The notes under the pieces were generated by a model. That model had not been told where the DNA came from. It made no database searches and was given only the letters and a program-made list of their open reading frames with translations. Both the position numbers and the translations under genes were made by a program. Of a stretch of DNA of 64,000 nucleotides, positions 17,156 through 34,927 are shown in pieces; within the stretch, counting starts at the first letter, position 1; each line of letters starts with the position of its first letter. The DNA is taken from assembly GCF_026167665.1 (NCBI RefSeq), contig NZ_CP098740.1, positions 6,758,001-6,822,000 of the forward strand. The letters run 5' to 3'. The stretch is from Streptomyces drozdowiczii (GTDB taxonomy: Bacteria > Actinomycetota > Actinomycetes > Streptomycetales > Streptomycetaceae).

Positions 17156-18556
17156 ATGGCGGCTCCACCACCTCAGCCCCGCGACCGGGCGCTCCGCAGC
17201 ACAACGGGACCACGGTCCGCCGGACAGGCCCTGGTCGCGGCCCTCGTCCTGCTTCCCGCACTGACCGGATGCGGCGGAGTGACCTTCGCCGACTCCCGCT
17301 CCGACACGTTCACCACCATGGGCTTCGGTCTGGGCGACGCCCTCGCCGCGGACCGCCTCGACACCGCGCGGACCGCGCTGAAGGCGCGGGGGCTGACGGT
17401 CAAGGTCAACGAAGGCGCCTTCGACGAGCAGCAGTTCCTCTCCGCCGTCGCCGCCGGCGACCCGCCGGACGTGGTGGACATGGACCGCACCCTCATCGGC
17501 GGCTACGCGGCGCGGGGCGCGCTGCTGCCGCTCACCGACTGCCTCGCGCGCGAGCACATCGACACCGGCGACTACTACCCGAACGCGATCGCCGAAGGCT
17601 CACTCGACCGTGTCGTCTACGCCCTCCCCGACTCGTACGACAGCCGCCTGCTGCTGACGAACGACCGGGTGCTCCACCAGGCCGGGACCGAAGCCGCCCA
17701 GGTGGACACGGGGGACTGGACGGGGCTGAAGAAGCTCGCCGGCACCGTCGCCCGGCACAACGACGGGAAACTGACCCGGATCGGCTTCGACCCGAAGATC
17801 CCCGAGTTCTTCCCGCTGTGGGCGAAGGCCAACGGCGCCGACCTGATCAGCGCCGACGGCCGCACCGCCGAACTCGACGACCCCAGAGCGGTCCAGGCCC
17901 TCGCGTACGCCGTGAGCCTGATCGACGCCCAGGGCGGCTGGAGCCGCTTCAAGTCGCTGCGCGACTCCTTCGACCAGTTCGGCGCGAAGAACCAGTTCGT
18001 GAAGGACCAGGTCGGTTCGTACCCGATGGAGGACTGGTACGTGAACGTGCTCGCCGGTGCCTCGCCCGACGTCGATCTCGCGGCCGGCGTCTTCAAGGAC
18101 CGCGAGGGGAAGACCCTCAACTGGGCCTCGGGGCTCGGCTGGGCCATCCCCAAAGGGGCCAAGCACCCCGAGGCCGCCTGCACGTTCATCAAGAACATGA
18201 CGTCCACGTCGTCGTGGGTGCACGCGGCGCGGGCGAAGGCGAAGGACGTACGCAAGGCCGGGGCGCCCTACACCGGGGACGTGACCGCCAACATCGAGGC
18301 CGACCGGATCATCGAACACGACGTGTGGAAGCCCACGGGTCACGCCGCCTTCGACCAGGCGACCCGCATCGTGTTCGACCTCGCCCGCAAGGGCTTCTCC
18401 GTACCGTCCAACGCGGCGGGCACCGAGTTCAAGACGGCCTGGCAGAACGCCGTCAACCGGGTCCTGTCCGGTGAGCAGACCCCGCGGCAGGCCCTCGACC
18501 AGGCGCAGCGCGAGGCGCAGAGCGCCCTCGACCTCGCCAACGAGGGGCGGAGGTGA
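17156..18556 (+). CDS. ABC sugar-importer substrate-binding lipoprotein
   Basis: A 466-residue family 1 solute-binding protein; ATG 17156 follows GAAGGAGAG. The signal peptide (SAGQALVAALVLLPALTGC) ends in a lipobox Cys. Mature features include VNEGAFDEQQFLSAVAAGDPPDVVDMD, YALPDSYDSRLLLTNDRVLHQAG and GLGWAIPKGAKHPEAACTFI, all usual for sugar-binding subunits. It is first gene of unit C and overlaps the next permease by four bases. Its sequence is quite different from the binding protein at 5402, suggesting a different oligosaccharide. Confidence 0.9.
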   Translation: MAAPPPQPRDRALRSTTGPRSAGQALVAALVLLPALTGCGGVTFADSRSDTFTTMGFGLGDALAADRLDTARTALKARGLTVKVNEGAFDEQQFLSAVAAGDPPDVVDMDRTLIGGYAARGALLPLTDCLAREHIDTGDYYPNAIAEGSLDRVVYALPDSYDSRLLLTNDRVLHQAGTEAAQVDTGDWTGLKKLAGTVARHNDGKLTRIGFDPKIPEFFPLWAKANGADLISADGRTAELDDPRAVQALAYAVSLIDAQGGWSRFKSLRDSFDQFGAKNQFVKDQVGSYPMEDWYVNVLAGASPDVDLAAGVFKDREGKTLNWASGLGWAIPKGAKHPEAACTFIKNMTSTSSWVHAARAKAKDVRKAGAPYTGDVTANIEADRIIEHDVWKPTGHAAFDQATRIVFDLARKGFSVPSNAAGTEFKTAWQNAVNRVLSGEQTPRQALDQAQREAQSALDLANEGRR

Positions 18557-19509
18557 CCGGAGTGGCGCATCCCGTGACGACAACACCCGTACGCCACAAG
18601 CCGCGTAGCGTCTGGCGGCGTCGTGAGACCTGGGCCGCGTACGGCTTCATCTCGCCGTGGATCGTCGGCTTCCTCGGCTTCACGGCGGGGCCGATGATCG
18701 CGAGCCTCGTCCTGTCCTTCACCGACTACGACGGCATCGGCGCCTCGCACAACGTGGGACTCGCCAACTACCGGCAGCTCTTCCAGGACCCGGCCGTCAC
18801 CAAGTCCCTGCTGAACACCCTGGTGTTCGCGGCGCTCCGCGTGCCGTTGTCCATGGCGTTCGCCCTGCTCCTGGCGATGCTCCTGCTCAGGGCCGGCCGC
18901 GCCTCCGGGATCTTCCGCACGCTGTTCTACCTGCCGGTGATGACACCGTCCGTCGCCGTCGGCATCCTCTTCCTGCTGCTGTTCAACGGCAACGTCGGCC
19001 TGATCAACCACGTTCTCGGCTTCGTCGGCATCCAGGGCCCGGCCTGGACCACCGACGGCTCCTGGGTCAAGCCGGGACTCGTCCTGACCAGCCTGTGGTC
19101 GGTCGGATCCACCGTGATCATCTATCTCGCGGCGCTCAAGGGCGTCCCGAAGGACCTCTACGAGGCGGCGGAACTGGACGGCGCGGGACGGGGGAGGCGC
19201 TTCTGGCACGTCACCCTGCCGCAGATATCCGGCACCCTCTTCTTCACCCTCATCGTCAACACGATCGCCGCGCTGCAGACCTTCACCGAGGCGTACACGG
19301 CCTTCTTCGGTAGCTCCAACTCGCAGACGTACAACAACGACGCCGCCCTCTTCTACGTCGTGTACCTCTTCCAGCAGGCGTTCCAGTACATGCACATGGG
19401 GTACGCCTCGGCCCTCGCCTGGCTGCTGTTCCTCGTGATCCTCCTCATCACGATCGTGCAGGCCAAGGTCAGCAAGCGGTTCGTCTACTACGAGGGGGAC
19501 CAGCGATGA
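18553..19509 (+). CDS. ABC sugar-importer permease (MalF type)
   Basis: A 318-residue six-segment permease, GTG 18553 in a GTGA overlap with the binding-protein gene. It begins with a basic tail, then WAAYGFISPWIVGFLGFTAGPMI. The EAA motif reads LYEAAELDGAGRGRRFWHV followed by LPQISGTLFFTLIVN. A conserved FQQAFQYMHMGYASALAW segment precedes the last helix. It works with the next gene as the channel pair. Confidence 0.92.
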   Translation: MTGVAHPVTTTPVRHKPRSVWRRRETWAAYGFISPWIVGFLGFTAGPMIASLVLSFTDYDGIGASHNVGLANYRQLFQDPAVTKSLLNTLVFAALRVPLSMAFALLLAMLLLRAGRASGIFRTLFYLPVMTPSVAVGILFLLLFNGNVGLINHVLGFVGIQGPAWTTDGSWVKPGLVLTSLWSVGSTVIIYLAALKGVPKDLYEAAELDGAGRGRRFWHVTLPQISGTLFFTLIVNTIAALQTFTEAYTAFFGSSNSQTYNNDAALFYVVYLFQQAFQYMHMGYASALAWLLFLVILLITIVQAKVSKRFVYYEGDQR

Positions 19510-20426
19510 CCCAGCTGACCGCCCGGCCGGAGCCCACCGAGGCTCCCGCCTCCCCGGCGGCCGTCGTCGCGCGCACCGCGCCCCGGCGCCGGGAGACCGA
19601 ACGGCCCGCGCGCAAGGCCCTGCGGATCGCGAGCCTCCTGGTGGCGGCCGGCGTCTTCCTCTATCCGTTCCTGTGGCTGATCAGCGCCTCCCTGAAGCCC
19701 TCGACCGACGTCTTCGACAACGCGCTGATCCCGCGTGTGTGGCAGCTGGACAACTACGCCGAGATCTGGCGGGCCGTCCCCCTGCTCCAGTGGGTCGGCA
19801 ACAGCATCGCCGTCACCCTCGCGGCGGCCGTCACGGTCACCGTTTCCAGCGCCCTCGTCGCGTTCGGCTTCGCCTACTTCCGGTTTCCCGGGCGTGACGC
19901 GCTGTTCGCGCTCGTCATCGGCACGATGATGCTGCCCGCGGTGGTGACCATGGTCCCCCAGTACCTCATCTGGAACTGGCTGCACCTGGCCAGCACCCAG
20001 GTCCCGCTGTGGGCACCGAACCTGTTCGGCAGCGCCTTCTACATCTTCCTGCTGCGCCAGTTCTTCCTCGGCCTGCCCCGCGAGCTGTTCGAGGCGGCGC
20101 GCATCGACGGAGCCTCCTACTGGACGATGTTCTGGCGCATCGCGGCGCCGCTGTGCCGGCCCGCGCTCATCGTCACCTTCGTCTTCGAGGTGCAGGCTTC
20201 CTGGACGGACCTCGTCCGGCCGCTCGTCTACCTGCGCGACCCGCAGCTCTACACCGTTCCGCGCGGGCTGAAGGCCGTGCTGGACCAGTTCGGCGCGGGC
20301 GGCGAGATGCGCTGGGACATCGTCTGCGCGGCGAGCGTCGTGGTGACGGTCCCGATGATCATCGCCTTCTTCGTCTGCCAGCGGCATTTCACCGAGGGCA
20401 TCGCCACCACCGGAAGCAAGGGCTGA
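19506..20426 (+). CDS. ABC sugar-importer permease (MalG type)
   Basis: A 306-residue permease, ATG 19506 overlapping the upstream stop. It has six membrane segments, VTVTVSSALVAFGFAYFRF, and an EAA loop LFEAARIDGASYWTMFWRI followed by APLCRPALIVTFVFEVQASW. It ends TEGIATTGSKG, the common C-terminus of MalG-type permeases. The importer again lacks an ATPase gene, implying a shared one elsewhere. Confidence 0.92.
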   Translation: MTQLTARPEPTEAPASPAAVVARTAPRRRETERPARKALRIASLLVAAGVFLYPFLWLISASLKPSTDVFDNALIPRVWQLDNYAEIWRAVPLLQWVGNSIAVTLAAAVTVTVSSALVAFGFAYFRFPGRDALFALVIGTMMLPAVVTMVPQYLIWNWLHLASTQVPLWAPNLFGSAFYIFLLRQFFLGLPRELFEAARIDGASYWTMFWRIAAPLCRPALIVTFVFEVQASWTDLVRPLVYLRDPQLYTVPRGLKAVLDQFGAGGEMRWDIVCAASVVVTVPMIIAFFVCQRHFTEGIATTGSKG

Positions 20427-20433
20427 CCTGTCC

Positions 20434-21458
20434 ATGATCCTCTACGACGACCGGGCCCCGGGCGACCGCGCCGTGCTCGCCCTCGACATCGGCGGCACGA
20501 AACTCGCCGCGGGCGTGGTCTCCGGCGACGGCACCGCGCGCTCCTTCGTGACCTGCCCGACGCGGACCGAGGAGGGCCCCGAAGCGGCTCTGCAACGGCT
20601 GTTCGCACTCGGCCGGGAGGCGCTGACCGCGGCCGGGATCGCCCCGGAGCGGGCCGCCGACCGACTGGCCGGCTGCGGAGTCGGCTGCGGCGGTCCGCTC
20701 GATTCGGCGGGCGGCGTCCTCATCGCACCGCCGCACCTGCCGGGCTGGCTGGACATCCCCATCACCCGGCTCGCCCATGAGCAGTACGGACTGCTCACCG
20801 TCCTCGACAACGACGGCACCGCGGGCGCGGCGGGGGAGTGGCGCTTCGGAGCCGGCCGGGGCACCCGCCACCTCGTCTACCTCACCGTGTCGACCGGGAT
20901 CGGCGGCGGCGTCGTCCTCGACGGCCGCACCTACCGGGGCGCCACCGGAAACGGCGGCGAGCCCGGCCACGTCACCGTCCGCTCCGACGGCCGCCCCTGT
21001 CGCGGCTGCGGCCGCACCGGCTGCCTGGAGGCGTACGCCTCGGGCACGTCCATCGCCGAGCGGGCCCGTGAGGCCCTCGCCGCCGGGGACCAGCGGAGCG
21101 TTCTCGCCGCACTGCCCCACCCCGGGCCCACGGCCGCCGACGTCGCCGCCGCCGCACGCGACGGCGACCCCCTCGCCACGGCGCTGTGGGACGAGACCAC
21201 CGACCTGCTGGCCGAGGGCCTTGCCTCCATCGTCAACCTCTACGAACCCGAGCTGGTCGTCCTCGGCGGCGGCGTCACCCGCTCCGGAGAGCAACTTCTG
21301 TCCCCGGTGCGGGAGAAGACGCGCCGCCTCGCCATGAGGCCCGCGGCGAACGCCCGCATCGTGCGCGCCCGGGCCGGCGACCGGGCCGGAGTCCTCGGCG
21401 CCGCCGCCATCGCCCTCGAACGCCTCGTCGACGACCCCGCCCCCTGCCGGTCGCCTGA
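20434..21458 (+). CDS. ROK-family sugar kinase; stop codon lost to a frame break at 21440
   Basis: ATG 20434, 7 bp after the permease. It has the phosphate-binding DIGGTKLAAGVVSG, then NDGTAGAAGEW with the catalytic Asp, and the ROK zinc motif GEPGHVTV...CRGCGRTGCLEAYAS. As printed, the frame runs on to 22053 through the whole next gene, with nonsense Arg/Pro-rich sequence. Adding one C to the five-C run at 21440-21444 gives PAPLPVA and a TGA at 21456-21458, for a 341-residue kinase of normal length. It probably phosphorylates glucose, mannose or an amino sugar released by the glycosidases of this operon. Confidence 0.87.
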
Positions 21459-21490
21459 CCGCCCGGCCCCCCACCGCAATCAGGAGCCCC

Positions 21491-22126
21491 ATGTCCGCCC
21501 CAGCCCCCGGCCGCGTCCCCGCACCGCTGCAACTCGACGACCACCTCGCCGCCGCCCGCCGTCTGGAGGAGGTGCTGCCCGCCCTCCACACGGTCGGCGA
21601 CCTCCTCATCGGCGTGTTCCGGCGCGGCGGCCGCCTCTACACCTTCGGCAACGGCGGCAGCGCCGCCGACGCCCAGCACCTCGCAGGCGAGTTCATCGGC
21701 CGCTACCTGCGCGAACGCCGCGCCCTGCCCGCCGTATCCCTCGTCACCGACCCGTCCGTGGTGTCCTGCATCGGCAACGACTACGCGTACGAGGAGGTCT
21801 TCGCCCGCCAGGTCGAAGCCCTCGCCACCGCCGACGACATGGTGGTCGGCTTCACCACCTCCGGCCGCTCGGCCAACGTGATTCGCGGCCTGGAGGAAGC
21901 CCGCAAGCGGGGCGCCGTCACCGTGCTGTTCGCGGGCGGAGAGCAGGGCGGCATGCCGGCCGCCGCCCACGCCGACCATGTGCTGGTCGCCCCGGCCACC
22001 GCCACCGCCCGCATCCAGGAGATGCACCTCACGCTGCTCCACCTGCTCAGTGAGCACGTCGACGCCTGGGCCGCGGGCGTCGCACCGGCCCCCCTTACCG
22101 ACGCGCGGCAGGAGACCCCCGCATGA
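21491..22126 (+). CDS. SIS-domain isomerase, GmhA-like
   Basis: A 211-residue SIS-fold protein; ATG 21491 follows AGGAG. The signature FGNGGSAADAQHLAGEFIGRY is that of sedoheptulose-7-phosphate isomerase (GmhA) and close relatives, followed by GNDYAYEEVFARQVEALA, GFTTSGRSANVIRGLEEAR and a C-terminal helix EMHLTLLHLLSEHVD. GmhA normally serves heptose synthesis, but no heptose gene is present; in this catabolic operon it more likely interconverts an aldose/ketose phosphate made by the neighbouring kinase. It overlaps the GH38 start by four bases. Confidence 0.85.
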   Translation: MSAPAPGRVPAPLQLDDHLAAARRLEEVLPALHTVGDLLIGVFRRGGRLYTFGNGGSAADAQHLAGEFIGRYLRERRALPAVSLVTDPSVVSCIGNDYAYEEVFARQVEALATADDMVVGFTTSGRSANVIRGLEEARKRGAVTVLFAGGEQGGMPAAAHADHVLVAPATATARIQEMHLTLLHLLSEHVDAWAAGVAPAPLTDARQETPA

Positions 22127-24639
22127 GCACCCCCGACCCGACCCCGCCCGTGTCGCCCGCCTCGCGCGAGCGCACCCTCCACCTCGTCGGCAACGCCCAC
22201 ATCGACCCCGTATGGCTGTGGCGCTGGCCCGAAGGGCTCCAGGAGATCCGCGCCACGTTCCGCTCCGCGGTCGACCGCATGGAGGAGTACCCCGACTTCG
22301 TGTTCACCTGCGACTCCGTCATGTACCTGGAATGGATCGAGCGGCACGACCCGGAGCTGTTCGAGGAGATCCGCAAGCGGGTCGCCGAAGACCGCTGGCA
22401 GATAGTCGGCGGCTGGTGGATCGAGCCGGACTGCAACATCCCCTCCGGTGAGTCCTTCGTCCGCCAGGCTCTCTACGGGCAGCGCTACCTGATCGAGAAG
22501 TTCGGGAAGGCGGCCACCGTCGGCTGCAACCTCGACCCGTTCGGCCACAACGCGACCATCCCGCAACTGCTGCGCGGCGCCGGAATGGACGGCTACGTGT
22601 TCCTGCGGCCCGGGCCCCACGAGCAGGTGCTGCCCGGCCAGTTCTTCCACTGGGAGGCCCCCGACGGCTCCAGGGTCATCGCCTACCGGCTGCCCAACGA
22701 GTACTGCACCCCCGGCAAGGACATCGGCAACCACATAGACAAGTCCCTCGCGATGATGCCGCCGGACGAACCCGAGCTGATGGTGTTCTACGGCGTCGGC
22801 AACCACGGCGGCGGCCCCACCAAGGCGAACCTGGACTCCATCGCCCGCCTCGACGCACTCGGCGGCCTGCCCCGCATGGAGCAGAGCCACCCCGAGAAGT
22901 TCCTCGCCCGCGTCCGCGACCGCGACGACATCCCCGTGCACACGGGCGAGCTCCAGCACCACGGGCCGGGCTGCTACTCCGCGCACTCCGGCGTCAAGGC
23001 GTGGAACCGGCGCGCCGAGAACGACCTCCAGCGCGCCGAGAAATGGGCCGCCGTCGCCGCCGCCGTTGCCGAAGAGGCATACCCGGCGGACCAGTTGACG
23101 GAAGCGTGGAAGCTGGTCCTGTTCAACCAGTTCCACGACATCCTGGCCGGCACCTCGATCCGGTCCGCCTACGAGGACGCCCGCGACGACTACGGGCGGG
23201 CCCGCTCGATCGCCGCCGAGGTGTTCAACCGCGCCGTGCAGGCGATCGCCCGCCGCGTCGACATCCCGCTGCGCGAGGAAACAGTCCCCCTCGTCGTGTT
23301 CAACCCCCACCCGTGGACCCTGGAGTCGGACGTCGAGTTCGAGTACGCGCAGGCCGCCGCCGTGCGCCTGACCGATGACACCGGCGCCCCCGTGCCGGTC
23401 CAGCTCACCCGCTCCGAATCCACCATGCAGGGCAGCCGGGGCCGCCTCGCCTTCCGCGCCGAGGTGCCGCCGCTCGGCCTGCGCGTCTACCACCTGCTGC
23501 CCGGCGCCGACCGGGGCGGCGACAGCCCGGTGCGCGCCACCGGCACGACGCTGGAGAACGAGCACCTGCGCCTGACGGTCGACCCCGCCACGGGCTGGCT
23601 CTCCTCCCTGTACGACAAGGCCACCGGTGCCGAACTGATCCCCGAACGCCCCGGAGCACACGCCGTCGTCGTGGACGATGCCAGCGACACCTGGGGCCAC
23701 CGCGTCCGCGCCTACGACCGGGCGATCGGCTCCTTCACGCCCAGCCGCGTCCGCCTGGTCGAATCGGGCCCGGTCCGCGCCGTGCTGCGCGTCGAGTCGG
23801 CGTACGGCACGTCCACGATGTCCGAGGAGATCGTGCTGTCGGCGGGCGCCCGGCAGGTCGAGGTACGCACCGTGGTCGACTGGCACGAGCGCCTCAAGCT
23901 GCTCAAACTGCGGTTCCCGACCGCCCTCACCGACGTGACCGCCACGCACGAGATCCCGTACGGCCACCTGGAGCGCATCCCGGACGGCACCGAGGAGCCC
24001 ACCCAGGCCTGGGTCGACGTCACCGGCACCCTGCCCGGCGGCACCCGCGCCGGACTCGCCGTCCTCAACGACAGCAAGCACGGCCACGACGTACTCGGCG
24101 GCGAGATCGGCACGACCGCCCTCCGCAGCCCCGTGTACGCCTGGCACGAGCCGAGGATCCTCGACGAGGACGGCGTCTACGACTACCTGGACCAGGGACG
24201 CCAGGAGTTCCGCTACGCGCTGCTCCCGCACGGCGCCGACTGGCGCGCCGCCGACCCCGTCCGCCGCGCCGCCGAACTCAACCAGCCCCCGTTCGCCCTC
24301 CTGGAGACCTTCCACACCGGCCCGGTCCCCCAGCGCGCGAGCTGGGCCGACGACGGTGCCGGCGGTGTCGTGGTCACCGTCGTCAAGGGCGGCGAGGACG
24401 GCGACTTCGTCGTGCGCGGGTACGAGTCGCAGGGCCGCCCCGCCACGGTGCGCGTCGCCCTGCCCATGCTGGGCGAACAGCGCTGTGTGGAAGCCGAGTT
24501 CGGGCCCCATGAGATCAAGACGTTCCGGATCCCTCGCGACCCCGCGTCACCGGTCGTCGAGACCGACCTGCTCGAACGGCCCCTCGGAGCACCCGGGGGC
24601 GCCTCACTCGCGGCCCGGCCGGGCCCGATCGGCGCCTGA
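22123..24639 (+). CDS. GH38 alpha-mannosidase
   Basis: An 838-residue cytoplasmic enzyme. The N-terminal catalytic domain has VGNAHIDPVWLWRWPEG with the zinc-binding His-x-Asp, then CNLDPFGHN carrying the nucleophile Asp, and LQHHGPGCYSAHS with later zinc ligands. A helical middle domain (residues 300-370, including FNQFHDILAGTSIRSAYEDA) and a C-terminal beta-sandwich follow, as in the family. It has no signal peptide, so it acts on imported alpha-mannosides. It complements the secreted GH92 enzyme of unit A and is the strongest clue that unit C handles mannose-containing oligosaccharides. Confidence 0.93.
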   Translation: MSTPDPTPPVSPASRERTLHLVGNAHIDPVWLWRWPEGLQEIRATFRSAVDRMEEYPDFVFTCDSVMYLEWIERHDPELFEEIRKRVAEDRWQIVGGWWIEPDCNIPSGESFVRQALYGQRYLIEKFGKAATVGCNLDPFGHNATIPQLLRGAGMDGYVFLRPGPHEQVLPGQFFHWEAPDGSRVIAYRLPNEYCTPGKDIGNHIDKSLAMMPPDEPELMVFYGVGNHGGGPTKANLDSIARLDALGGLPRMEQSHPEKFLARVRDRDDIPVHTGELQHHGPGCYSAHSGVKAWNRRAENDLQRAEKWAAVAAAVAEEAYPADQLTEAWKLVLFNQFHDILAGTSIRSAYEDARDDYGRARSIAAEVFNRAVQAIARRVDIPLREETVPLVVFNPHPWTLESDVEFEYAQAAAVRLTDDTGAPVPVQLTRSESTMQGSRGRLAFRAEVPPLGLRVYHLLPGADRGGDSPVRATGTTLENEHLRLTVDPATGWLSSLYDKATGAELIPERPGAHAVVVDDASDTWGHRVRAYDRAIGSFTPSRVRLVESGPVRAVLRVESAYGTSTMSEEIVLSAGARQVEVRTVVDWHERLKLLKLRFPTALTDVTATHEIPYGHLERIPDGTEEPTQAWVDVTGTLPGGTRAGLAVLNDSKHGHDVLGGEIGTTALRSPVYAWHEPRILDEDGVYDYLDQGRQEFRYALLPHGADWRAADPVRRAAELNQPPFALLETFHTGPVPQRASWADDGAGGVVVTVVKGGEDGDFVVRGYESQGRPATVRVALPMLGEQRCVEAEFGPHEIKTFRIPRDPASPVVETDLLERPLGAPGGASLAARPGPIGA

Positions 24640-24707
24640 CAGGCACCCGACCCGACGAAGCCGAGGGCCCGGCGGGCGCTCCGTACACCTGGAAGACGGG
24701 AACACGC

Positions 24708-26729: not shown

Positions 26730-28114
26730 CAGGCACCGCCCCCCGCGACAGCACACTCGGCACCCTGCGCTTCCCCGACGGGTTCTCCTGGGGCACCTCG
26801 ACCTCCGCCTACCAGGTGGAGGGCGCCGTGGACGCCGACGGCCGGGGCGAATCCGTCTGGGACCGCTTCTGCCGGGTGCCCGGTGCCATCGAGCGCGGTG
26901 ACACCGGCGACGTCTCCGTCGACCAGTACCGGCGCCGCTCCGAGGACGTGGCCCTCATGGCCGGACTCGGCACCAACGCCCACCGCTTCTCCCTGGCCTG
27001 GCCCCGCATCCAGCCCGAGGGCACGGGACGCGCCGAGCAGCGCGGCCTGGACCACTACGACCGGTTCGTCGACGACCTGCTCGCCCACGGCATCCACCCG
27101 CTCGTCACCCTCTACCACTGGGACCTGCCCCAGGCCCTCCAGGACCGCGGCGGCTGGCGCGACCGCGACACCGCCCACCGGTTCGCCGATTACGCCGCCG
27201 TGTGCCAGGACCGCCTCGGCGACCGCGTCCACGACTGGGTCACCGTCAACGAACCCTGGATCGTGGGCCTCCTCGGCCACCAACTCGGCCTGCACGCACC
27301 GGGCGAGAGAGACCTCAAGGCATCCGTGACCGTCATGCACCACCTGCTGCTGGCCCACGGACTCGCCGCGCGCGTGCTGCACGACGGCGACGCACACGCC
27401 CGTACCGGCATCGCCTACAGCCTCTTCCCCCACACACCCGACAACCCCGGAAGCGCCGCCGACCGGGCCGCCGCACACGCCTCGGACGGCTACGTGAACC
27501 GCTGGTTCCTCGACCCGGTGCACGGCCGCGGCTACCCCGACGACACGCGCACCCACTGGGAACGGGCGGTGGGCGCCCTGGACTTCATCGAGGACGGCGA
27601 CCCGGACACCATCGCCGCCGCGAGCGACTTCATCGGCGTCAACTACTACACCCGGCGCATCGTCTCGGCCCGCCCCGGTGACGGCCCCTGGCCCTGGCGG
27701 GTCGAACCGGGCCGGGCCGACGTGGACCGCACCGACCTCGGCTGGGAGATCGTCCCCGACGACCTGACCGCCCTGCTGCTGCGCCTGCACCGCGAGTACC
27801 CGGGCGTCCCCCTCCTGATCACCGAGAACGGCGCCGTGTACCACCACGAGCCCGATGCCGACGGCGCCGTCCACGACGCACCCCGCACCGCGTTCCTGCA
27901 CGCCCACCTCAAGGCCGTGCACCGGGCCCTCGCCCAGGGCGCTCCGGTCGAGGGCTACTACCACTGGTCGCTCCTGGACAACTTCGAGTGGGCGATGGGC
28001 TACCGGCCGCGCTTCGGCCTCGTCCACGTCGACCGTTCCACCCAGCGGCGCACCGTCAAGGACAGCGGTCACTGGTACGCCCGCGCCGCCCGCACGGGCG
28101 GCATCCCGCGATGA
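26726..28114 (+). CDS. GH1 family beta-glycosidase
   Basis: A 462-residue enzyme starting at GTG 26726 (GTGA overlap; AGGAGG just upstream). Complete GH1 landmarks: FPDGFSWGTSTSAYQVEGA at the N-terminus, TLYHWDLPQAL, the acid/base Glu in WVTVNEPWIVG, GVNYYTRR, the nucleophile Glu in LLITENGAVY, and YYHWSLLDNFEWAMGY near the end. It is cytoplasmic. It probably cleaves beta-glucosides, beta-mannosides or beta-galactosides from imported oligosaccharides; the family cannot be narrowed by sight. Confidence 0.94.
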   Translation: MTGTAPRDSTLGTLRFPDGFSWGTSTSAYQVEGAVDADGRGESVWDRFCRVPGAIERGDTGDVSVDQYRRRSEDVALMAGLGTNAHRFSLAWPRIQPEGTGRAEQRGLDHYDRFVDDLLAHGIHPLVTLYHWDLPQALQDRGGWRDRDTAHRFADYAAVCQDRLGDRVHDWVTVNEPWIVGLLGHQLGLHAPGERDLKASVTVMHHLLLAHGLAARVLHDGDAHARTGIAYSLFPHTPDNPGSAADRAAAHASDGYVNRWFLDPVHGRGYPDDTRTHWERAVGALDFIEDGDPDTIAAASDFIGVNYYTRRIVSARPGDGPWPWRVEPGRADVDRTDLGWEIVPDDLTALLLRLHREYPGVPLLITENGAVYHHEPDADGAVHDAPRTAFLHAHLKAVHRALAQGAPVEGYYHWSLLDNFEWAMGYRPRFGLVHVDRSTQRRTVKDSGHWYARAARTGGIPR

Positions 28115-28175
28115 CCCCACCGGCACCGGCCGCAGGCCCCACGCCCCCGTCGCGGACGCGCACCGGAGGCACCGC

Positions 28176-29645
28176 ATGAACACACGATCACCGCTCCTCG
28201 CCGGCATCGACATCGGGACCACCCACATCAAGGCCCTGATCAGCGACACCGACGGCACCGTGCTCGCCCGCGCCGTACGCCGCACACCCGTCGCCCCCGG
28301 GTACCGGCACCCCGCCGACGGCGTACTCGCCGCCGCCCTGGACGCCCTGACCGACTGCGCCGACGCCACCGGTCGGCCGCCCGACGCGATCGGCGTGACC
28401 GGCATGGCCGAGACGGGCGCGCCCCTCGACCGCGACGGCCGGCCCCTGGACGACCTGCGCGCCTGGTCCGACCCCGAGCCCGCCCCGTACGCCCACAGCC
28501 TCGGCGCGCGGCTCGGCTCCGGCGCCCTGCACCGTGCCACCGGCGTCCTGCCGAGCGCGAAGGTGCCCCTGGCCAAATGGTGCGAACTCGCCGACCGCGA
28601 ACCGGAGACGGCCGCCCGGATGCACACCTGGGCGGGCGCCGCCGACCTGCTGGTCCACGCGCTCACCGGCCGCCTCGGCACCGACGCCACCTTCGCCCAG
28701 CGCACCATGGCCTGGGACCCGCACCACAAGCGATGGATCGAGGAACTGCTCACCGAGGCAGGGCTCACCACGCGGCACATGCCGCCCGTGCACGCGCCCG
28801 GCGACCCCGTCGGCACCGTCACGCGGCCCGTCGCCCTGCGCCACCGCCTGCGCGCCGGGGCGCCCGTCGTCGTCGCCGGACACGACCACCTCGTCGGCGC
28901 CTGGGCGGCCGGAGCACGCACGGCCGGGCAGGTGGCCGACTCGATGGGAACCGCCGAGGCCGTCCTCACCGTCAGCGCCACACCACCCGACCACGCGGCA
29001 GCCGCCGAGGAGGGCATGTCCTGGGGGAGGCACGCGAACGGGGAGCACTACATCCTGCTCGCCGGCATGCGCGGTTCGGGAGTGCTCGTGGAATGGGTCT
29101 GCGACCGGTTCCTGACCGGTACGAGCGGCGGCGACCGGTACGCCGCGTTCGAACGCCTCGTCCGGTCGCTGCCCGCGACACCCACCGGCCTCGTCCTCAC
29201 CCCGTACCCCGGCGGGCGCAGCGCACCGCGGCCCGACCCGCACGCGACGCTCGACCTCCGGGGCCTGGGCCTCGGCCACGGCCCCGCGGACCTGGCCCGC
29301 GCCGTCCTGGAGGGCACCGCGCACCACGCCCGCTGGATGGCCGACGTCCAGGCCACCGTGTGCGGCGCCGCCCCCGACTCGGTGACCCTGCTCGGCGGCT
29401 CGACCCGGCTGCGCCCGTGGACCGAACTGAAGGCAGCCGTCTGCCCCTGGCCCACCCGGTTGTGCGCCGAACCGGAGGCGCCCGCCCTCGGCGCCGCCCA
29501 CTGGGCGGGCGCCGCCCTCGGGCTCGACCCCGCCGCGCCCACCGCACCCTCGGACCCGGTCGTCCCCGACCCGGCGACGGCCGAGGCCCACCGGGCCTTC
29601 CACCACGACCGTTTCCTGGCAGCGGTCGCACCGCCACCCCCGTGA
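28176..29645 (+). CDS. FGGY-family carbohydrate kinase
   Basis: A 489-residue kinase; ATG 28176 follows GGAGG. The N-terminal ATP-site motif is GIDIGTTHIKALISD; then GVTGMAETGAP, AGHDHLVGAWAAG and VTLLGGSTRLRPWTELKA (the second phosphate/adenosine region). It belongs with xylulokinase/gluconokinase-like enzymes, but the substrate is not evident. With the aldolase next door it could supply a 1-phosphate ketose or phospho-sugar acid for cleavage. Confidence 0.88.
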   Translation: MNTRSPLLAGIDIGTTHIKALISDTDGTVLARAVRRTPVAPGYRHPADGVLAAALDALTDCADATGRPPDAIGVTGMAETGAPLDRDGRPLDDLRAWSDPEPAPYAHSLGARLGSGALHRATGVLPSAKVPLAKWCELADREPETAARMHTWAGAADLLVHALTGRLGTDATFAQRTMAWDPHHKRWIEELLTEAGLTTRHMPPVHAPGDPVGTVTRPVALRHRLRAGAPVVVAGHDHLVGAWAAGARTAGQVADSMGTAEAVLTVSATPPDHAAAAEEGMSWGRHANGEHYILLAGMRGSGVLVEWVCDRFLTGTSGGDRYAAFERLVRSLPATPTGLVLTPYPGGRSAPRPDPHATLDLRGLGLGHGPADLARAVLEGTAHHARWMADVQATVCGAAPDSVTLLGGSTRLRPWTELKAAVCPWPTRLCAEPEAPALGAAHWAGAALGLDPAAPTAPSDPVVPDPATAEAHRAFHHDRFLAAVAPPPP

Positions 29646-29705
29646 CCCTGCGGCCGAGGCCGCCCGTACCACCCCACCCGACGCACACACCGGAGAGACC
29701 CCACC

Positions 29706-30662
29706 ATGACCACGCGCGCCGACCGCCCCGCCCAGCTCGCCGGGGGCTCCGTCGCCCCGTGCCGCCTCGCCCGCCCCACCGGCACCTTCGCGATGGTCGC
29801 CGCCGACCAGCGCGACTCGCTGCGCACGATGATGGCCGAACGCGCCGGGGTGCCCGGCGACCGTGTCCCCGACGACGACCTCACCGAGTTCAAGCTCGCC
29901 GTCGCCCGCACGCTCGGCCCGTACGCCTCCGCGCTCCTCATCGACCGCCACTACGGCTACCACCGGCTCGTCGCGGAGCAGGTGCTCCCGGCGAGCTGTG
30001 CCCCGATCCTCGCCGTGGACGCCCTCGACCAAAAACCCGGGCAGCCCGTCGAAGACACCTCCCTGGACCCGGACATCGACCCCGCGGCGGCCGCCGCCGA
30101 CGGCACCCACGGCCTGAAACTCCTCGTCATCTGGCGCCGCGACGACCGACGCGACGAACGCGTGGCCCTCGCTGCCCGCTTCGTGGACCTGTGCCGAGCG
30201 GCCGGACTGGCCTCCGTCCTGGAACCCGTCGCCCGGCCCACCCCCGCCGAAGAGGCCGCAGGCACCTTCCGGCTCAACGACGCCATCGTGGAGGCTGCCC
30301 GCGAACTCGCGCCGCTGCGGCCCTCCCTCTACAAGGGCCAGGTCCCCGACGGCGGCACCGGCCCGCTCACCCGGCTCACCGCCGCGTGCGAGCGCATCGA
30401 CGCCGTGGTCGACGTCCCCTGGGTGGTCCTGTCCCAGGGCGTCGCCCCCGCCGACTTCCCCACCGCCGTGGAGGCGGCCTGCCGCGCCGGAGCCTCGGGA
30501 TTCCTCGCCGGACGCGCCCTGTGGACCGACGCCCTGACCGGCGACCGCGATGCCGCACTGCGCGGCCCCGGCACCGACCGGCTGCGCGGGCTCGGTGAGA
30601 TCGTGGACGCCCACGGCCGCCCCTGGTGGCAGGCGCCCGCCGCCGCGGCGGTGACCGCATGA
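29706..30662 (+). CDS. LacD/YihT-type class I sugar-phosphate aldolase
   Basis: A 318-residue TIM-barrel aldolase; ATG 29706 after GGAGAG. Matches to the LacD/YihT family: GTFAMVAADQRDSLRTMM, LTEFKLAVARTLGPYASALL, GLKLLVIWRRDD, the Schiff-base Lys at about residue 210 in SLYKGQVP, PWVVLSQGV and GASGFLAGRALW. Known members cleave tagatose 1,6-bisphosphate (LacD) or sulfofructose 1-phosphate (YihT). The sequence reads closest to YihT, but the rest of a sulfoquinovose pathway is absent. I call it a class I aldolase of unknown substrate. Its stop overlaps the next start. Confidence 0.85.
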   Translation: MTTRADRPAQLAGGSVAPCRLARPTGTFAMVAADQRDSLRTMMAERAGVPGDRVPDDDLTEFKLAVARTLGPYASALLIDRHYGYHRLVAEQVLPASCAPILAVDALDQKPGQPVEDTSLDPDIDPAAAAADGTHGLKLLVIWRRDDRRDERVALAARFVDLCRAAGLASVLEPVARPTPAEEAAGTFRLNDAIVEAARELAPLRPSLYKGQVPDGGTGPLTRLTAACERIDAVVDVPWVVLSQGVAPADFPTAVEAACRAGASGFLAGRALWTDALTGDRDAALRGPGTDRLRGLGEIVDAHGRPWWQAPAAAAVTA

Positions 30663-31351
30663 GCCGCCGCCCCCGTGTGTGCCTCGTGCACACCGTCGCC
30701 TCCCTGCCCGCGGTGTTCACGCCCCTGCTCGCCGAACTCGCCCCCGGCGTCGACCCCTACCACGTCGTGGACGAAAGCCTCCTGGCCGACACGATCGCCC
30801 ACGGCCGGCTGCCCCGTACCACCGCCCGTCTCGCCGCGTACGTCACACACGCCGAGGCGGCCGGGGCCGACGCGGTGCTCGTGACCTGCTCCTCCCTGGG
30901 GCCCGCCGCCGAGGAGGTCCGCGCGCTCACCGCCCTGCCCGTGCTGCGCGTAGACGAGCCGATGGCCGAAGCGGCCGTCCGCACCGGAATCCGCATCGCG
31001 GTCCTCGCCACGCTCGATTCGACCCTCGCTCCCACGGCCGGGCTCGTCACCCGCAAGGCGGCCGAGGCCGGCACCCCGGTCACCCTCGACACCACGGTCT
31101 GCCCCGGCGCGTACGCCGCTCGGACCGCCGGAGACCAGGACCGCCACGACGCCCTGATCGCCGAGGAAGCGCGCCGTCTGGCCGCCGACCACGATGTCCT
31201 CGTCCTCGCCCAGGCATCGATGGCAGCTGCGCTCACCGCGCTGCCGGACGACGCTCTCGGCGTGCCGGTGCTCACCTCGCCGCGCAGCGGCGTCGCGCAA
31301 CTCGCCTCCCTGTACGGGGAGGCCCGGCCCGAGGAGACCGCCCGCTCATGA
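30659..31351 (+). CDS. Asp/Glu/hydantoin racemase-like protein
   Basis: A 230-residue protein in ATGA overlaps with both neighbours. It has the Asp/Glu racemase fold with the first catalytic Cys in VLVTCSSLGPAAEE, IAVLATLDSTLAPT, a later Cys in DTTVCPGAYAA, and LAQASMAAAL. These enzymes use two Cys to move a proton at a carbon next to a carboxylate. Sitting directly before OtnK and OtnC, it could act on a sugar acid in the slot usually held by OtnI or a dehydrogenase; that is inference. Confidence 0.8.
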   Translation: MSRRPRVCLVHTVASLPAVFTPLLAELAPGVDPYHVVDESLLADTIAHGRLPRTTARLAAYVTHAEAAGADAVLVTCSSLGPAAEEVRALTALPVLRVDEPMAEAAVRTGIRIAVLATLDSTLAPTAGLVTRKAAEAGTPVTLDTTVCPGAYAARTAGDQDRHDALIAEEARRLAADHDVLVLAQASMAAALTALPDDALGVPVLTSPRSGVAQLASLYGEARPEETARS

Positions 31352-32592
31352 CCGTACTCGGCTGCATGGCGGACGACTTCACCGGCGCCACCGACCTCGC
31401 GGGCAACCTCGTCGCCACGGGCCGCCGCACCGTGATCACCATCGGCGCGCCCGTGGACCCCCTGCCCGAAACGGACGCCGTGGTCGTCGCCCTCAAGACC
31501 CGCACCGTGCCCGCCGCCGACGCGGTCCGGGCCGCGCTCGACGCCCACCGCGCCCTGCGGGAGCAGGGGTGTACGCGGTTCTGGTTCAAGTACTGCTCCA
31601 CGTTCGACTCGACACCGCGCGGCAACATCGGGCCCGTCATCGACGCCCTGCTCGACGCGACGGGCGCACCCTGGACGATCGCCTGCCCGGCCTTCCCCGC
31701 CAACGGCCGCACGGTCTACCAGGGCCACCTCTTCGTCGGGGACCGGCTGCTGAGCGAAAGCGGTATGCGTCACCATCCGCTGACGCCCATGACCGACCCG
31801 GACCTGGTGAGGGTGCTCGGCGCGCAGACCCGGCATCCGGTCGGGCTGCTGCCCCATGCGGTCCTGCGCGCCGGAGCCGCCGCGACCCGGGCACACGTCG
31901 AACGGCTCACCGCGGTCGGCGGCGCCCGCGTCCTGGTCACCGACGCCCTCGACGACGCCGACCTCGCCGCCGTCGAACAGTGCGCCCGCGAACTGCCGCT
32001 GGTCACCGGCGGGTCCGGTCTCGCCCTCGCCCTGCCGCCGGGCGCCGCACCGGCCGCCGCCACGATCCCCACCGCACCCGGCCCGCTCGCCGTCCTCGCC
32101 GGAAGCGTGTCCGAGACGACGATCGCGCAGACCGCCCACGCCCGCCGCCTGCTGCCGCACCGCAAAGTGCCCGTCGCGGATGCCGTGGCCGACCCGCCGG
32201 CCACCGCCCGCCACCTGGCGGCCTGGGCCCGGCCGCACCTCGACACCGGCAACGGCGTCCTCGTGTACAGCGCCGACCACCGTGAAGAAGTGCGCGACGC
32301 CCAGAAGGAGTTCGGCGCGGAACGAGTCGCCACGGCGCTGGAGGAAACCCTCGCCGCATGCGCGCGCGACCTCACCGCCGGAGGGGTCCGGCGCCTCCTG
32401 GTCGCAGGCGGCGAGACGTCCGGGGCCGTCGTCTCGGCACTCGGCATCCGGGCCCTGACCGTCGGACCCGCCATCGCCCCCGGCATCCCGTGGACGAGCG
32501 CCGACCACCGCGGCGGCCCCCTCAACCTGGCCCTGAAATCAGGCAACTTCGGACCCGAGGACCTGTTCACGACGGCGGAGGACCACCTGTGA
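31348..32592 (+). CDS. otnK: Four-carbon acid sugar kinase (OtnK family)
   Basis: A 414-residue kinase with the two-domain OtnK layout (formerly DUF1537). The N-terminus reads GCMADDFTGATDLAGNL, the family hallmark, then FWFKYCSTFDSTPRGNIGPV and NGRTVYQGHLFVGDRLLSESGMRHHPLTPM. The C-terminal nucleotide domain has LVAGGETSGAVVSALG and GPAIAPGIPWTS. Characterised OtnK enzymes phosphorylate 3-oxo-tetronates; the next gene encodes the matching decarboxylase, which supports this role. Its ATG overlaps the racemase stop and its stop overlaps the OtnC start. Confidence 0.92.
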   Translation: MTVLGCMADDFTGATDLAGNLVATGRRTVITIGAPVDPLPETDAVVVALKTRTVPAADAVRAALDAHRALREQGCTRFWFKYCSTFDSTPRGNIGPVIDALLDATGAPWTIACPAFPANGRTVYQGHLFVGDRLLSESGMRHHPLTPMTDPDLVRVLGAQTRHPVGLLPHAVLRAGAAATRAHVERLTAVGGARVLVTDALDDADLAAVEQCARELPLVTGGSGLALALPPGAAPAAATIPTAPGPLAVLAGSVSETTIAQTAHARRLLPHRKVPVADAVADPPATARHLAAWARPHLDTGNGVLVYSADHREEVRDAQKEFGAERVATALEETLAACARDLTAGGVRRLLVAGGETSGAVVSALGIRALTVGPAIAPGIPWTSADHRGGPLNLALKSGNFGPEDLFTTAEDHL

Positions 32593-33260
32593 CCGGCCCG
32601 CACACCGACCCCGCGGCCGCGCTCGCCGCCGCGGGCCGCCACCTCGCCGCGCTCGGCCTGAGCCCCGGGACCTCGGGCAACCTCAGCCTCCGCACCGCCG
32701 ACGGCATCCTCGCCACCCCGACCGGCCGTCCCCTCGCCGCACTGGAGGCGAGCGGCCTGAGCCTGCTGGACAGCGGCGGCCGCGTCCGGAAGGGGCCGCC
32801 ACCGACCAAGGAGGTGCCCCTCCACCTGGCCGTCCACGACCGCCTCGCCGGGGCAGCCGCCGTTGTCCACCTGCACTCCACCTACGCGGTCGCCCTCGCC
32901 TGCACCGAACCCGACGACCCGGACGACGCGCTCATCCCCTTCACCCCGTACGCCGTCATGCGCCTGGGCCGCGTGCCCCTCCTCCCATACGCCCACCCCG
33001 GCACGCCCGAACTGGCCGACGGCGTCGGACACCTGCCCGAGGACACCGCCGCCTTCCTGCTCGCCCAGCACGGGCCGGTCGCCGTCGGCCGGGACCTCGA
33101 CGAGGCCGTCGGCAGGGCGGTCGAACTCGAAGAGGCGAGCCGCCTCCAGTTCGCCCTCGCGCCCGCACCCCGCGTCCGCACCCTGACCCCCGCCCAGCGG
33201 GCCCACCTCACCGCCCGGACCCGCCGGACCGCCGAACAGCCCACCGAGGACCCCGTATGA
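32589..33260 (+). CDS. otnC: Class II aldolase, OtnC-type 3-oxo-tetronate-4-phosphate decarboxylase
   Basis: A 223-residue class II aldolase-fold protein, GTG 32589. Features in order: SPGTSGNLSLR, KGPPPTKEVPLHLAVH, the metal ligands in VVHLHSTYAVALA (HxH) and LAQHGPVAVG (third His). In known tetronate pathways OtnC decarboxylates the OtnK product to dihydroxyacetone phosphate. Its strict pairing with OtnK supports the call over a generic fuculose-phosphate aldolase. Confidence 0.88.
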   Translation: MTGPHTDPAAALAAAGRHLAALGLSPGTSGNLSLRTADGILATPTGRPLAALEASGLSLLDSGGRVRKGPPPTKEVPLHLAVHDRLAGAAAVVHLHSTYAVALACTEPDDPDDALIPFTPYAVMRLGRVPLLPYAHPGTPELADGVGHLPEDTAAFLLAQHGPVAVGRDLDEAVGRAVELEEASRLQFALAPAPRVRTLTPAQRAHLTARTRRTAEQPTEDPV

Positions 33261-34927
33261 GCACGACCCGGACCACCGACCAGTGGTGGCGCACCGCTGT
33301 CGTCTACCAGATCTACGTCCGCAGTTTCAGCGACAGCGACGGCGACGGCCTCGGCGACCTCCCGGGCATCACCGCCCGGCTGCCGTACATCGCGGACCTC
33401 GGGGCCGATGCCGTGTGGATCACCCCGTTCTACCGCTCGCCCATGCACGACGGGGGCTATGACGTCGCCGACCACCGCGCCGTCGACCCGCGCTTCGGCA
33501 CCCTCGATGACGCGGACGACCTCATCAGGCGCGCCCACGAGCTGGGCCTGCGCGTGATCATCGACATCGTGCCCAACCACACCTCCGACCAACATGCCTG
33601 GTTCAGGAAGGCGTTGACCGCACCTCCGGGCAGCGGGGCCCGCTCCCGTTACGTCTTCCGCGACGGCAGAGGTGACGGCACCGCCCCACCCACCGACTGG
33701 CAGTCCGTGTTCGGCGGCCCCGCCTGGCGCCGGGTTCCGGACGGCCAGTGGTACCTGCACCTGTTCGGCCCCCACCAGCCGGACCTCGACTGGAGCCACC
33801 CCGAGGTACGCGCCGACTTCGAGGACATCCTGCGCTTCTGGCTCGACCGGGGCGTCGACGGATTCCGCTTCGACGTCGCCCACGGCATGGCCAAGGACCT
33901 GGCCGACCCCCTGCGCGACCTCGGCCCCGCCCAGGTGCACCACCGCATCGTCGGCGACGGCTGGCAGGGTGACCACCCGTTCTGGGACCGCGAGGACGTC
34001 CACGGCCTGCTCCGCGGATTCCGCCGCGTCACCGACGCCTACACCCCGCCGCGCGCCACCGTGGCCGAATCCTGGGCGGCGCTCGACCGCCGAGCCCTCT
34101 ACACCCGCCCCGACGAGCTGCACCAGGCGTTCAACTTCGACTTCCTGAACACGCCGTGGCAGGCCGACGCCCTGCGCGCCACGATCGACCGATCCCTCGC
34201 CCTGGCCGCCGGCACCGGCGCGGCCCCCACCTGGGTGCTCTCCAACCACGACGTCGTACGGCACGCCTCCCGGCTCGCCCTGCCCCCCGGCGTCGACCCC
34301 GACGACTGGCTCCTCACCGACGGGCGGGCCCCCTCCGTCGACCCCGGTCGCGCCGCCCGCCGGGCCCGCGCCGCCGCACTGCTCCTCCTGGCCCTGCCCG
34401 GCGCCGCGTACCTCTACCAGGGCGAGGAGCTGGGTCTGCCGGAGGCCGCCGACCTGCCCGCGGACGTCCTCCAGGACCCGGTGCACGACCGGTCACGCGG
34501 ACGCCGCAAGGGCAGGGACGGCTGCCGGGTCCCCCTGCCCTGGGCCACCACCGGTCCCTCGCTCGGCTTCGGCCCCGGCCCCGCGTGGCTCCCGCAGCCG
34601 GCCTCGTACCGGCCCCTGAGCGTCGAGGCGCAACGCCGCGACCCGGACAGCATGCTGGCGCTGTACCGGCGGGCACTGGCCCTGCGGCGCACGTACATGA
34701 GCGCCGGCACCGGTACCGACGCACCCTTGCGCTGGCAGGGCGGGAGCGCTCCGGGAATCCTCGACTTCCACGCCGGAAACCTGCGCTGCGTAGTGAATCT
34801 CTCCCACGGGCCCATGAGGCTCCCGACCGACCACTCCCCCCTGCTCACCAGCACCCTCGCCGACGCGCCCCAGGACGCACTGCTCCCGGACGAGGCGGCC
34901 TGGCTGACGGACGTCAGGGAGGAGTGA
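33257..34927 (+). CDS. GH13 alpha-glucosidase
   Basis: A 556-residue GH13 enzyme closing unit C; ATG 33257 overlaps the OtnC stop. Conserved regions: VYQIYVRSFSDSDGDGLGDL, DIVPNHTS (region I), GFRFDVAH (region II, nucleophile Asp), TVAESW (region III, acid/base Glu) and VLSNHDVVRH (region IV). The order and the QPDLDWSHPEV segment fit oligo-1,6-glucosidase/alpha-glucosidase subfamilies. It is cytoplasmic and presumably releases glucose from imported alpha-glucosides. The 3' end overlaps the convergent Hsp18 regulator by 14 bp. Confidence 0.92.
   Translation: MSTTRTTDQWWRTAVVYQIYVRSFSDSDGDGLGDLPGITARLPYIADLGADAVWITPFYRSPMHDGGYDVADHRAVDPRFGTLDDADDLIRRAHELGLRVIIDIVPNHTSDQHAWFRKALTAPPGSGARSRYVFRDGRGDGTAPPTDWQSVFGGPAWRRVPDGQWYLHLFGPHQPDLDWSHPEVRADFEDILRFWLDRGVDGFRFDVAHGMAKDLADPLRDLGPAQVHHRIVGDGWQGDHPFWDREDVHGLLRGFRRVTDAYTPPRATVAESWAALDRRALYTRPDELHQAFNFDFLNTPWQADALRATIDRSLALAAGTGAAPTWVLSNHDVVRHASRLALPPGVDPDDWLLTDGRAPSVDPGRAARRARAAALLLLALPGAAYLYQGEELGLPEAADLPADVLQDPVHDRSRGRRKGRDGCRVPLPWATTGPSLGFGPGPAWLPQPASYRPLSVEAQRRDPDSMLALYRRALALRRTYMSAGTGTDAPLRWQGGSAPGILDFHAGNLRCVVNLSHGPMRLPTDHSPLLTSTLADAPQDALLPDEAAWLTDVREE

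Follow-up and report, generated by a model that had tools for sequence, protein, structure and literature searches.

Which compound feeds OtnK and OtnC when the two genes stand in a row of glycosidase genes, away from the enzymes with which they usually work? The question is raised by a 64,000-nt stretch of Streptomyces drozdowiczii DNA (NZ_CP098740.1, assembly GCF_026167665.1, positions 6,758,001-6,822,000; hereafter the window), part of a 7.39-Mb genome. Fourteen genes at 17156-34927, all on the plus strand, have the Pfam and NCBIfam families given to them by a first-pass annotation of the window, which had explained the row by glycosides of tetronate or glycerate, the hydrolases releasing an acid that would pass directly to OtnK and OtnC. 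Our analysis partly supports that interpretation. An FGGY-family carbohydrate kinase and a YihT-like aldolase appear to take the place of the enzymes that usually feed OtnK-OtnC, and the best explanation that we can offer, which we hold tentatively, is that a keto-acid sugar, predicted to be a hept-2-ulosuronate, is split by the aldolase and its four-carbon part consumed through OtnK and OtnC.

OtnK, OtnC and the search for their usual feeding enzymes

The L-threonate/D-erythronate pathway has four steps, catalyzed by a dehydrogenase (LtnD or DenD), OtnI, OtnK and OtnC (PMC12540250). In S. drozdowiczii, OtnK is the sole match to model NF043035 in the entire genome at 1e-5, and the OtnK proteins of three related loci scored singly also pass its cut-off (412, 424 and 517 bits). 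Homologues of the OtnC-like protein scored 277 bits in S. triticirhizae (L014), above the NF043034 cut-off, and 205 (L010) and 196.5 bits (L053), below it. Genome-wide, no protein passed the models of the feeding enzymes. The best match to OtnI (NF043033, cut-off 325) reached 170.6 bits outside the window and 62 bits within it, near 43879-44256; that to threonate dehydrogenase LtnD (the NF043037/NF043036 pair) reached 189.9 of the 350 bits needed; and erythronate dehydrogenase DenD (same pair of models) yielded no match at 1e-20, its model having passed in none of 14 known genomes used as controls, among which OtnI, OtnK and LtnD each passed in one. The 62-bit match to OtnI is borne by a TIM-barrel gene at 43519-44319.

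The first-pass claim of an OtnK-OtnC pair without OtnI or a tetronate dehydrogenase is thus borne out at these cut-offs. The glycosides that it had invoked are a different matter. A tetronate or mannosylglycerate-type glycoside would account for the presence of the OtnK and OtnC-like genes and would recall the glucosylglycerate phosphorylases found among enzymes of glycoside hydrolase (GH) subfamily GH13_18 (PMC7178133), but neither the required dehydrogenase nor OtnI is found above cut-off, the GH13_18 enzymes of related loci have EVHAH rather than the (T/S)ETN mark of glucosylglycerate phosphorylases, and the FGGY kinase and the aldolase would be left idle. We consider this explanation very improbable. 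The gene set appears to fit better with a four-carbon acid that is the product of the aldolase, and hence with a larger sugar acid of seven carbons.

A YihT-like aldolase and its gene neighborhood in Actinobacteria

YihT cleaves sulfofructose 1-phosphate into dihydroxyacetone phosphate (DHAP) and sulfolactaldehyde (PMC8873060). Matched against PDB, the alignment profile of the window aldolase was closest to the sulfofructosephosphate (SFP) aldolases YihT (about 320 bits), followed by a DUF2090 protein (106) and the tagatose bisphosphate aldolases, including LacD (84 or less). The enzyme had been annotated as YihT/LacD-type; the first half of that name is retained on the strength of its 320 bits to YihT chains, a kinship read from sequence only, and LacD-type activity is disfavored (84 versus 320 bits). 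SFP aldolase is also the name shown in JGI among the best 120 relatives; the gene context argues against this name for this clade.

Kinship to YihT speaks for a variant of sulfoglycolysis, in which 6-deoxy-6-sulfofructose derived from a sulfoquinovose-bearing glycan would be phosphorylated by the FGGY kinase in place of YihV and cleaved by a true SFP aldolase. Clusters for the sulfoglycolytic Embden-Meyerhof-Parnas (sulfo-EMP) pathway are known in Actinobacteria (PMC8873060). However, a search covering the genes of the row revealed no PfkB kinase, sulfolactaldehyde reductase or sulfolactaldehyde dehydrogenase, and the Asp/Glu-racemase-family protein of the row (hereafter RAC), OtnK and OtnC would be left idle. 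This variant is quite improbable.

The company kept by the aldolase was surveyed in a genome collection by searching with the aldolase alone (profile from an alignment of 20 relatives), yielding 198 relatives of which the best 80 loci were kept. Up to 10 kb of flank was fetched on each side, some loci being contig ends, and genes were predicted with our own GC-frame caller, which set some starts wrongly and missed or merged some genes. Unless otherwise stated, neighbors were counted as homologues at 80 bits or more; clustering gives differing counts, such as 63 instead of 58 of the 80 loci for RAC. With a threshold of E 1e-20 the enzyme proved uncommon in the family of the host: five of 200 genomes have it, counting S. 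drozdowiczii, and in three of these the identity is only 36-46%. The best 80 relatives are from Streptomyces, Micromonospora, Jiangella, Cellulomonas, Microbacterium, Leifsonia, Naasia, Nonomuraea, Actinophytocola, Thermoleophilia and others. Their loci carry, in addition to RAC (58 loci), homologues of the FGGY kinase (51), a DeoR gene (43), OtnK (39), GH38 (31), OtnC (30), the GH36-like protein (30), GH1 (26), GH13_18 (26), GH2 (23), the 673-aa protein (18), SIS (17), ROK (15) and GH84 (15). GH38 thus occurs in 31 of all 80 loci and in 24 of the 53 that reach 20.8 kb or more, when about 0.2% would be expected for a random stretch of that size (an estimate from 32 GH38 genes in ~336 Mb, sizes rounded, 33 rows holding one split gene).

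Gene order is conserved as well. The FGGY gene directly precedes the aldolase gene in 47 of the 80 loci, the aldolase gene adjoins that of RAC in 58 (overlapping it in 45) and all three form a row in 42; OtnK and OtnC lie side by side in 29 loci, DeoR and OtnK in 27, and RAC and GH13_18 in 25. The genes are therefore not found together only in S. drozdowiczii but recur among the best 80 actinobacterial loci, in agreement with the conserved and coupled sugar-acid gene set first proposed. These counts also bear on the reading in which the locus is a composite, the glycosidases and the ROK and SIS proteins serving an ordinary, N-glycan-like mannose glycan, and FGGY-aldolase and RAC-OtnK-OtnC serving separate minor sugars, all co-regulated since plant or fungal debris contains these sugars together. 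In favor of this reading, the actinobacterium Cutibacterium has a known N-glycan locus with GH38 (PMC6160142), the relatives add GH2, GH84 and, by sequence reading, GH4- and NagB-like genes, and several loci have the aldolase but lack RAC or OtnK. The frequency of the FGGY-aldolase-RAC row and of DeoR-OtnK neighbors argues in the other direction, as does the failure of every model of a usual oxo-tetronate source to pass in the genome, and we regard a composite locus as rather unlikely.

Two further features of the related loci were noted. A rhamnogalacturonan lyase (PF21348, scored for L030:5144-7471) is encoded near the aldolase core in nine loci, eight of them from Nonomuraea, and directly beside the DeoR gene in seven, hinting at a link to pectin there. 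In Thermoleophilia, the glycosidase row includes a sulfatase (L082:5635-7074; 459 bits against a choline-sulfatase cut-off of 433).

A single-cysteine racemase-family protein as partner of OtnK-OtnC

In all 64 RAC sequences, that of the window included, C71 is conserved, and at least 90% of them (as well as all 32 rows of one alignment) carry a glutamine, Q179 within an AQASM motif, at the expected position of a second cysteine. Two-base racemases of the Asp/Glu family use two catalytic cysteines, the second of which is expected from the family motif where RAC has this glutamine. A role as a two-base racemase is thus disfavored for the product of 30659-31351. Its structure model (predicted local distance difference test score, 94.9) has the Asp/Glu racemase fold, with aspartate and glutamate racemases leading the Foldseek list. 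The description of the protein as racemase-like therefore holds for the fold and the first cysteine and fails at the second catalytic cysteine.

RAC was searched for in 293 genomes of the order, 109 of which gave a match. Three groups were told apart by score and neighborhood, not by a tree of the family: core orthologues at 290-299 bits (four genomes, S. drozdowiczii included), a frequent paralogue at ~108-199 bits, and a related group of RAC-like proteins below 100 bits in 12 Streptomyces genomes. All loci of the last group were fetched. Ten of the 12 share a row with OtnK-OtnC, either with the RAC-like gene directly beside OtnK (L105, L108, L109 and L110) or two genes away, an isomerase gene and a tartrate/isopropylmalate-dehydrogenase-like gene standing in between (L100, L102, L103, L104, L106 and L107); in L111 and L112, the RAC-like gene is not in a row with OtnK-OtnC. 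Each of the ten tetronate rows has an OtnI- or IolO-like isomerase, and those read have a dehydrogenase, of the D-2-hydroxyacid type in L105 and L108. Individual scoring gave 277.6 and 289.8 bits for the OtnI-like isomerases in L105 and L108 (OtnI, cut-off 325) and 101 of 300 for the IolO-like isomerase of L100; OtnK (540.5) and OtnC (284.5) of L100 pass, and so does OtnK of L105 (451), the OtnC of which just misses (246.4 of 250). The ten RAC-like proteins retain the cysteine in TCS and the glutamine in LAQ, and their rows show no homologue of FGGY or of the aldolase at 1e-8 (1e-10 for L100). A single-cysteine racemase-family protein is thus a recurrent partner of OtnK-OtnC in Streptomyces, and the RAC type of protein belongs to tetronate rows. 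That such rows have a dehydrogenase where the window and its relatives have FGGY and the aldolase instead suggests that the aldolase makes the four-carbon precursor.

In a tree of 35 core OtnK proteins (those of 370-520 aa among 39), ten from tetronate rows and four from distant DUF1537 rows, the S. triticirhizae OtnK (L014) grouped with six of the ten tetronate-row proteins (support 100/97). Together with the OtnC of this locus passing its model, the grouping points to a tetronate function drawn from another source, so that L014 probably acquired the same function in a recruitment of its own.

In two Micromonospora loci (L017 and L022), a homologue of OtnI and hydroxypyruvate isomerase is encoded between the aldolase and RAC. 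The L017 protein scored 249.8 bits as hydroxypyruvate isomerase and 203.5 as OtnI, both below cut-off. The notion of RAC as a simple replacement for OtnI is weakened by OtnI-like and RAC-like genes standing side by side in L017, L022, L105, L108, L109 and L110.

Hexuronates are abundant, and a route for fructuronate or tagaturonate would have the aldolase yield DHAP and tartronate semialdehyde, the latter being isomerized to hydroxypyruvate. The higher score of the Micromonospora isomerase as hydroxypyruvate isomerase and the nine loci with a rhamnogalacturonan lyase are in its favor. Such a route would offer no C4 substrate to OtnK (519 bits, cut-off 350) or to OtnC, and, phosphohydroxypyruvate not being a beta-keto acid, an OtnC-type decarboxylation would have nothing to act on. 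We find a hexuronate route improbable.

As an aside, the frequent Streptomyces paralogue of RAC (L095:9269-9904, L096:8789-9451 and L101:8426-9175, the three loci of the group looked at) lies beside panD (aspartate decarboxylase, by reading) and a small acetyltransferase-like gene; LAQ(A/G)S replaces the second cysteine there.

Predicted release of the ketose by GH13 enzymes

The GH13_18 gene directly follows that of RAC in 25 of the 26 loci that have it, with an overlap in 20. The Microbacterium enzyme (L067; 11574-13010) is nearest to Bifidobacterium adolescentis sucrose phosphorylase (450.9 bits). In loop A, sucrose phosphorylases have N(L/V)D(I/L/V)YQ, and a sucrose-6F-phosphate phosphorylase uses His344 to bind the 6-phosphate (both from PMC7178133). 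Where the sucrose phosphorylase motif would stand, the two members read have LPHQ, and P, H and Q are each found in at least 90% of the 26 sequences. Given this loop and the His344 precedent, it is a fair guess that the acceptor is a ketose with an anionic end. For these enzymes a glucosylglycerate phosphorylase activity is disfavored by the EVHAH sequence already mentioned. The PHQ loop A of L067 and 25 relatives fits none of the specificity motifs taken from PMC7178133 and may mark a new phosphorylase specificity.

Proposed pathway and points for and against it

The sequences themselves show the gene content and its conservation, the kinship to YihT, the glutamine of RAC at the second cysteine position, an OtnK above cut-off and no usual feeding enzyme above cut-off; from these we infer the substrate, the reactions and their order as follows. 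The unit would import and dismantle an oligosaccharide built from mannose, glucose and a carboxylate-terminated ketose. GH38, GH1, GH13 and probably the 673-aa and GH36/GH31-like proteins would release its sugars; ROK and SIS would take up mannose; and GH13, or the GH13_18 phosphorylase in 26 of the 80 relatives, would release the keto-acid sugar by cleaving off an alpha-glucosyl group. The FGGY kinase would phosphorylate C1 of the ketose, and the aldolase would cleave the ketose 1-phosphate into DHAP and 2,3-dihydroxy-4-oxobutanoate, a four-carbon aldehyde acid. Single-cysteine RAC, beside an OtnI-like enzyme in the two Micromonospora loci, would bring this acid to a usable 3-oxo-tetronate, which OtnK and OtnC would convert to a second DHAP and CO2, for a total of two DHAP and one CO2. 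The predicted size of the substrate follows from the chemistry: aldolases of the YihT type yield an aldehyde, the aldehyde isomer of 3-oxo-tetronate is 2,3-dihydroxy-4-oxobutanoate, and adding DHAP to it gives a seven-carbon ketose with a terminal carboxylate. The carbon count (7 = 3 + 3 + 1) would thus make the sugar acid a hept-2-ulosuronate.

Several observations weigh against this scheme. No natural hept-2-ulosuronate was found in the literature searched. Since no FGGY model passes, the phosphorylated position is a guess; since OtnI-like and RAC-like genes occur together in some rows, RAC need not be the isomerase; and since the DenD model passes in none of the control genomes, the absence of DenD is weakly controlled. 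The window OtnC stays below cut-off (198 of 250); NF043034 is its best family, and it has the Aldolase_II domain. The window GH13 is of the hydrolase type, an alpha-glucosidase being nearest, and not a GH13_18 enzyme, and the GH13_18 protein of L053 misses the sucrose phosphorylase model TIGR03852 (316 bits, cut-off 334). As to gene order, RAC directly adjoins OtnK in only five of the 80 loci, OtnK is present in only 39, and outside Streptomyces OtnK-OtnC are mostly encoded on the opposite strand, with the DeoR gene in between; a distant DUF1537 protein with no OtnC nearby is found in four loci from Micromonospora and Actinoallomurus. RAC is not near the aldolase in 22 loci nor FGGY in 29 (partly owing to contig ends), indicating that the aldolase can occur without them. 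The substrate is accordingly a prediction, and a composite locus is possible.

If the scheme holds, a YihT-like aldolase works with the tetronate module in a single route for a sugar acid not found in the literature searched, the operon predicts the carbon skeleton of that acid, aldolases of this clade are misnamed, and the single-cysteine racemase group gains a testable role in oxo-tetronate metabolism. No title or abstract among the matches listed from the literature searched, outside which most subscription papers lie, describes the combined pathway or DUF1537/OtnI together with a racemase. In its fullest form, the proposal is of a new C7 keto-uronic acid pathway of the EMP type in many soil Actinobacteria, drawing on an alpha-glucoside and running through FGGY as 1-kinase, the aldolase, RAC as isomerase, OtnK and OtnC to two DHAP and CO2; we see this as possible, without counting on it. 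It would imply that a C7 sugar acid in nature has gone unrecognized, that GH13_18 includes a new specificity and that actinobacterial tetronate operons have a further component so far overlooked.

Gene content of the row and adjacent genes

The genes of the row are listed in Table 1 with those immediately upstream. Overlaps of 4 bp are found at each junction of RAC-OtnK-OtnC-GH13 and likewise between the two permease genes, between SIS and GH38, and between the 673-aa protein and GH1 genes. The unit probably extends upstream to 12119-16861, because MBL-fold, GH36/GH31-like and LacI genes share a row with ROK-SIS-GH38 in L044, L060 and L086.

Table 1. Genes of the S. drozdowiczii row and of its probable upstream extension (window coordinates). 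MBL, metallo-beta-lactamase; ABC, ATP-binding cassette.
Product	Position	Strand	Basis
MBL-fold protein, N-terminal half (frame A)	12119..12991	+	Pfam Lactamase_B
MBL-fold protein, C-terminal half (frame B), overlapping first half	12922..13962	+	Pfam Lactamase_B
GH36/GH31-like putative alpha-glycosidase	13959..15809	+	no Pfam match; weak PDB match to GH31 alpha-galactosidase, E 1.6e-4
LacI-family regulator	15809..16861	+	Pfam LacI, Peripla_BP_3
ABC sugar-binding protein	17156..18556	+	Pfam SBP_bac_1
ABC permease 1	18553..19509	+	Pfam BPD_transp_1
ABC permease 2	19506..20426	+	Pfam BPD_transp_1
ROK sugar kinase (matched part; open frame to 22053)	20434..21441	+	Pfam ROK; below cut-offs of all 13 NCBIfam models matched
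SIS-domain isomerase, GmhA-like	21491..22126	+	Pfam SIS_2; TIGR00441 164 bits, cut-off 209
GH38 alpha-mannosidase	22123..24639	+	Pfam Glyco_hydro_38N, Alpha-mann_mid, 38C
673-aa putative carbohydrate-active enzyme	24708..26729	+	residues 264-671 alpha/alpha barrel; no Pfam match at E 0.001
GH1 beta-glycosidase	26726..28114	+	TIGR03356 565.7 bits, cut-off 478.5
FGGY carbohydrate kinase (proposed ketose 1-kinase)	28161..29645	+	Pfam FGGY_N/C; none of 12 NCBIfam models matched passes
YihT-like class I aldolase (DeoC/LacD family)	29706..30662	+	profile vs PDB: YihT 320 bits
Asp/Glu-racemase-family protein (RAC), single catalytic Cys	30659..31351 (start maybe 30677)	+	Pfam Asp_Glu_race
OtnK, 3-oxo-tetronate 4-kinase	31348..32592	+	NF043035 519.3 bits, cut-off 350
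OtnC-like protein	32589..33260	+	Pfam Aldolase_II; NF043034 198 bits, cut-off 250
GH13 alpha-glucosidase-like	33257..34927	+	Pfam Alpha-amylase; PDB 8yif alpha-glucosidase 507.6 bits

The coding sequence of the MBL-fold protein is divided between two overlapping frames, the 18-member cluster of this protein (the second half from the window included) having a median length of 616 aa; a frameshift, a sequencing error or two genes are candidate explanations. The ROK frame (20434-22053) stays open for ~200 aa beyond the ROK match, into the SIS gene in another frame, the related cluster having a median of 334 aa. We claim no activity for the 673-aa protein, for which fold comparison returned only the common alpha/alpha-barrel class (GH76, unsaturated glucuronyl hydrolase, 2-epimerases). 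Directly upstream, 5525-12007 encodes a second ABC importer (by reading) followed by a GH92 alpha-mannosidase, perhaps a further unit of mannoside uptake. Another sugar ABC importer (by reading) lies within 36703-45182 together with a MocA-type oxidoreductase (36703-37551, minus strand; Pfam).

Comparison with known systems

With the L-threonate/D-erythronate pathway the window shares an OtnK above cut-off, an OtnC-like protein of the Aldolase_II type and the overlap of otnK and otnC; unlike that pathway, it shows neither a dehydrogenase nor OtnI above cut-off and adds single-cysteine RAC, FGGY and the YihT-like aldolase. The Cutibacterium acnes N-glycan locus (PMC6160142) likewise has GH38 in a row with other glycosidases, whereas the row studied here also carries sugar-acid enzymes. 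A carbohydrate kinase paired with a YihT-type aldolase is a trait of sulfo-EMP systems, namely the yih operon and the Arthrobacter clusters (PMC8873060). In the window row, in contrast, the kinase is FGGY and not PfkB, neither sulfolactaldehyde reductase nor dehydrogenase is present, and enzymes for a four-carbon acid follow. YihV is a sulfofructose kinase of the PfkB family; the sugar kinases of the window row are ROK and FGGY. RAC, finally, has the fold and first catalytic cysteine of the Asp/Glu/hydantoin racemase family and differs in the glutamine of AQASM at the expected second cysteine. Overall, the row looks like a variation on pathways of known kinds, and the chance that it constitutes a truly new route is moderate.

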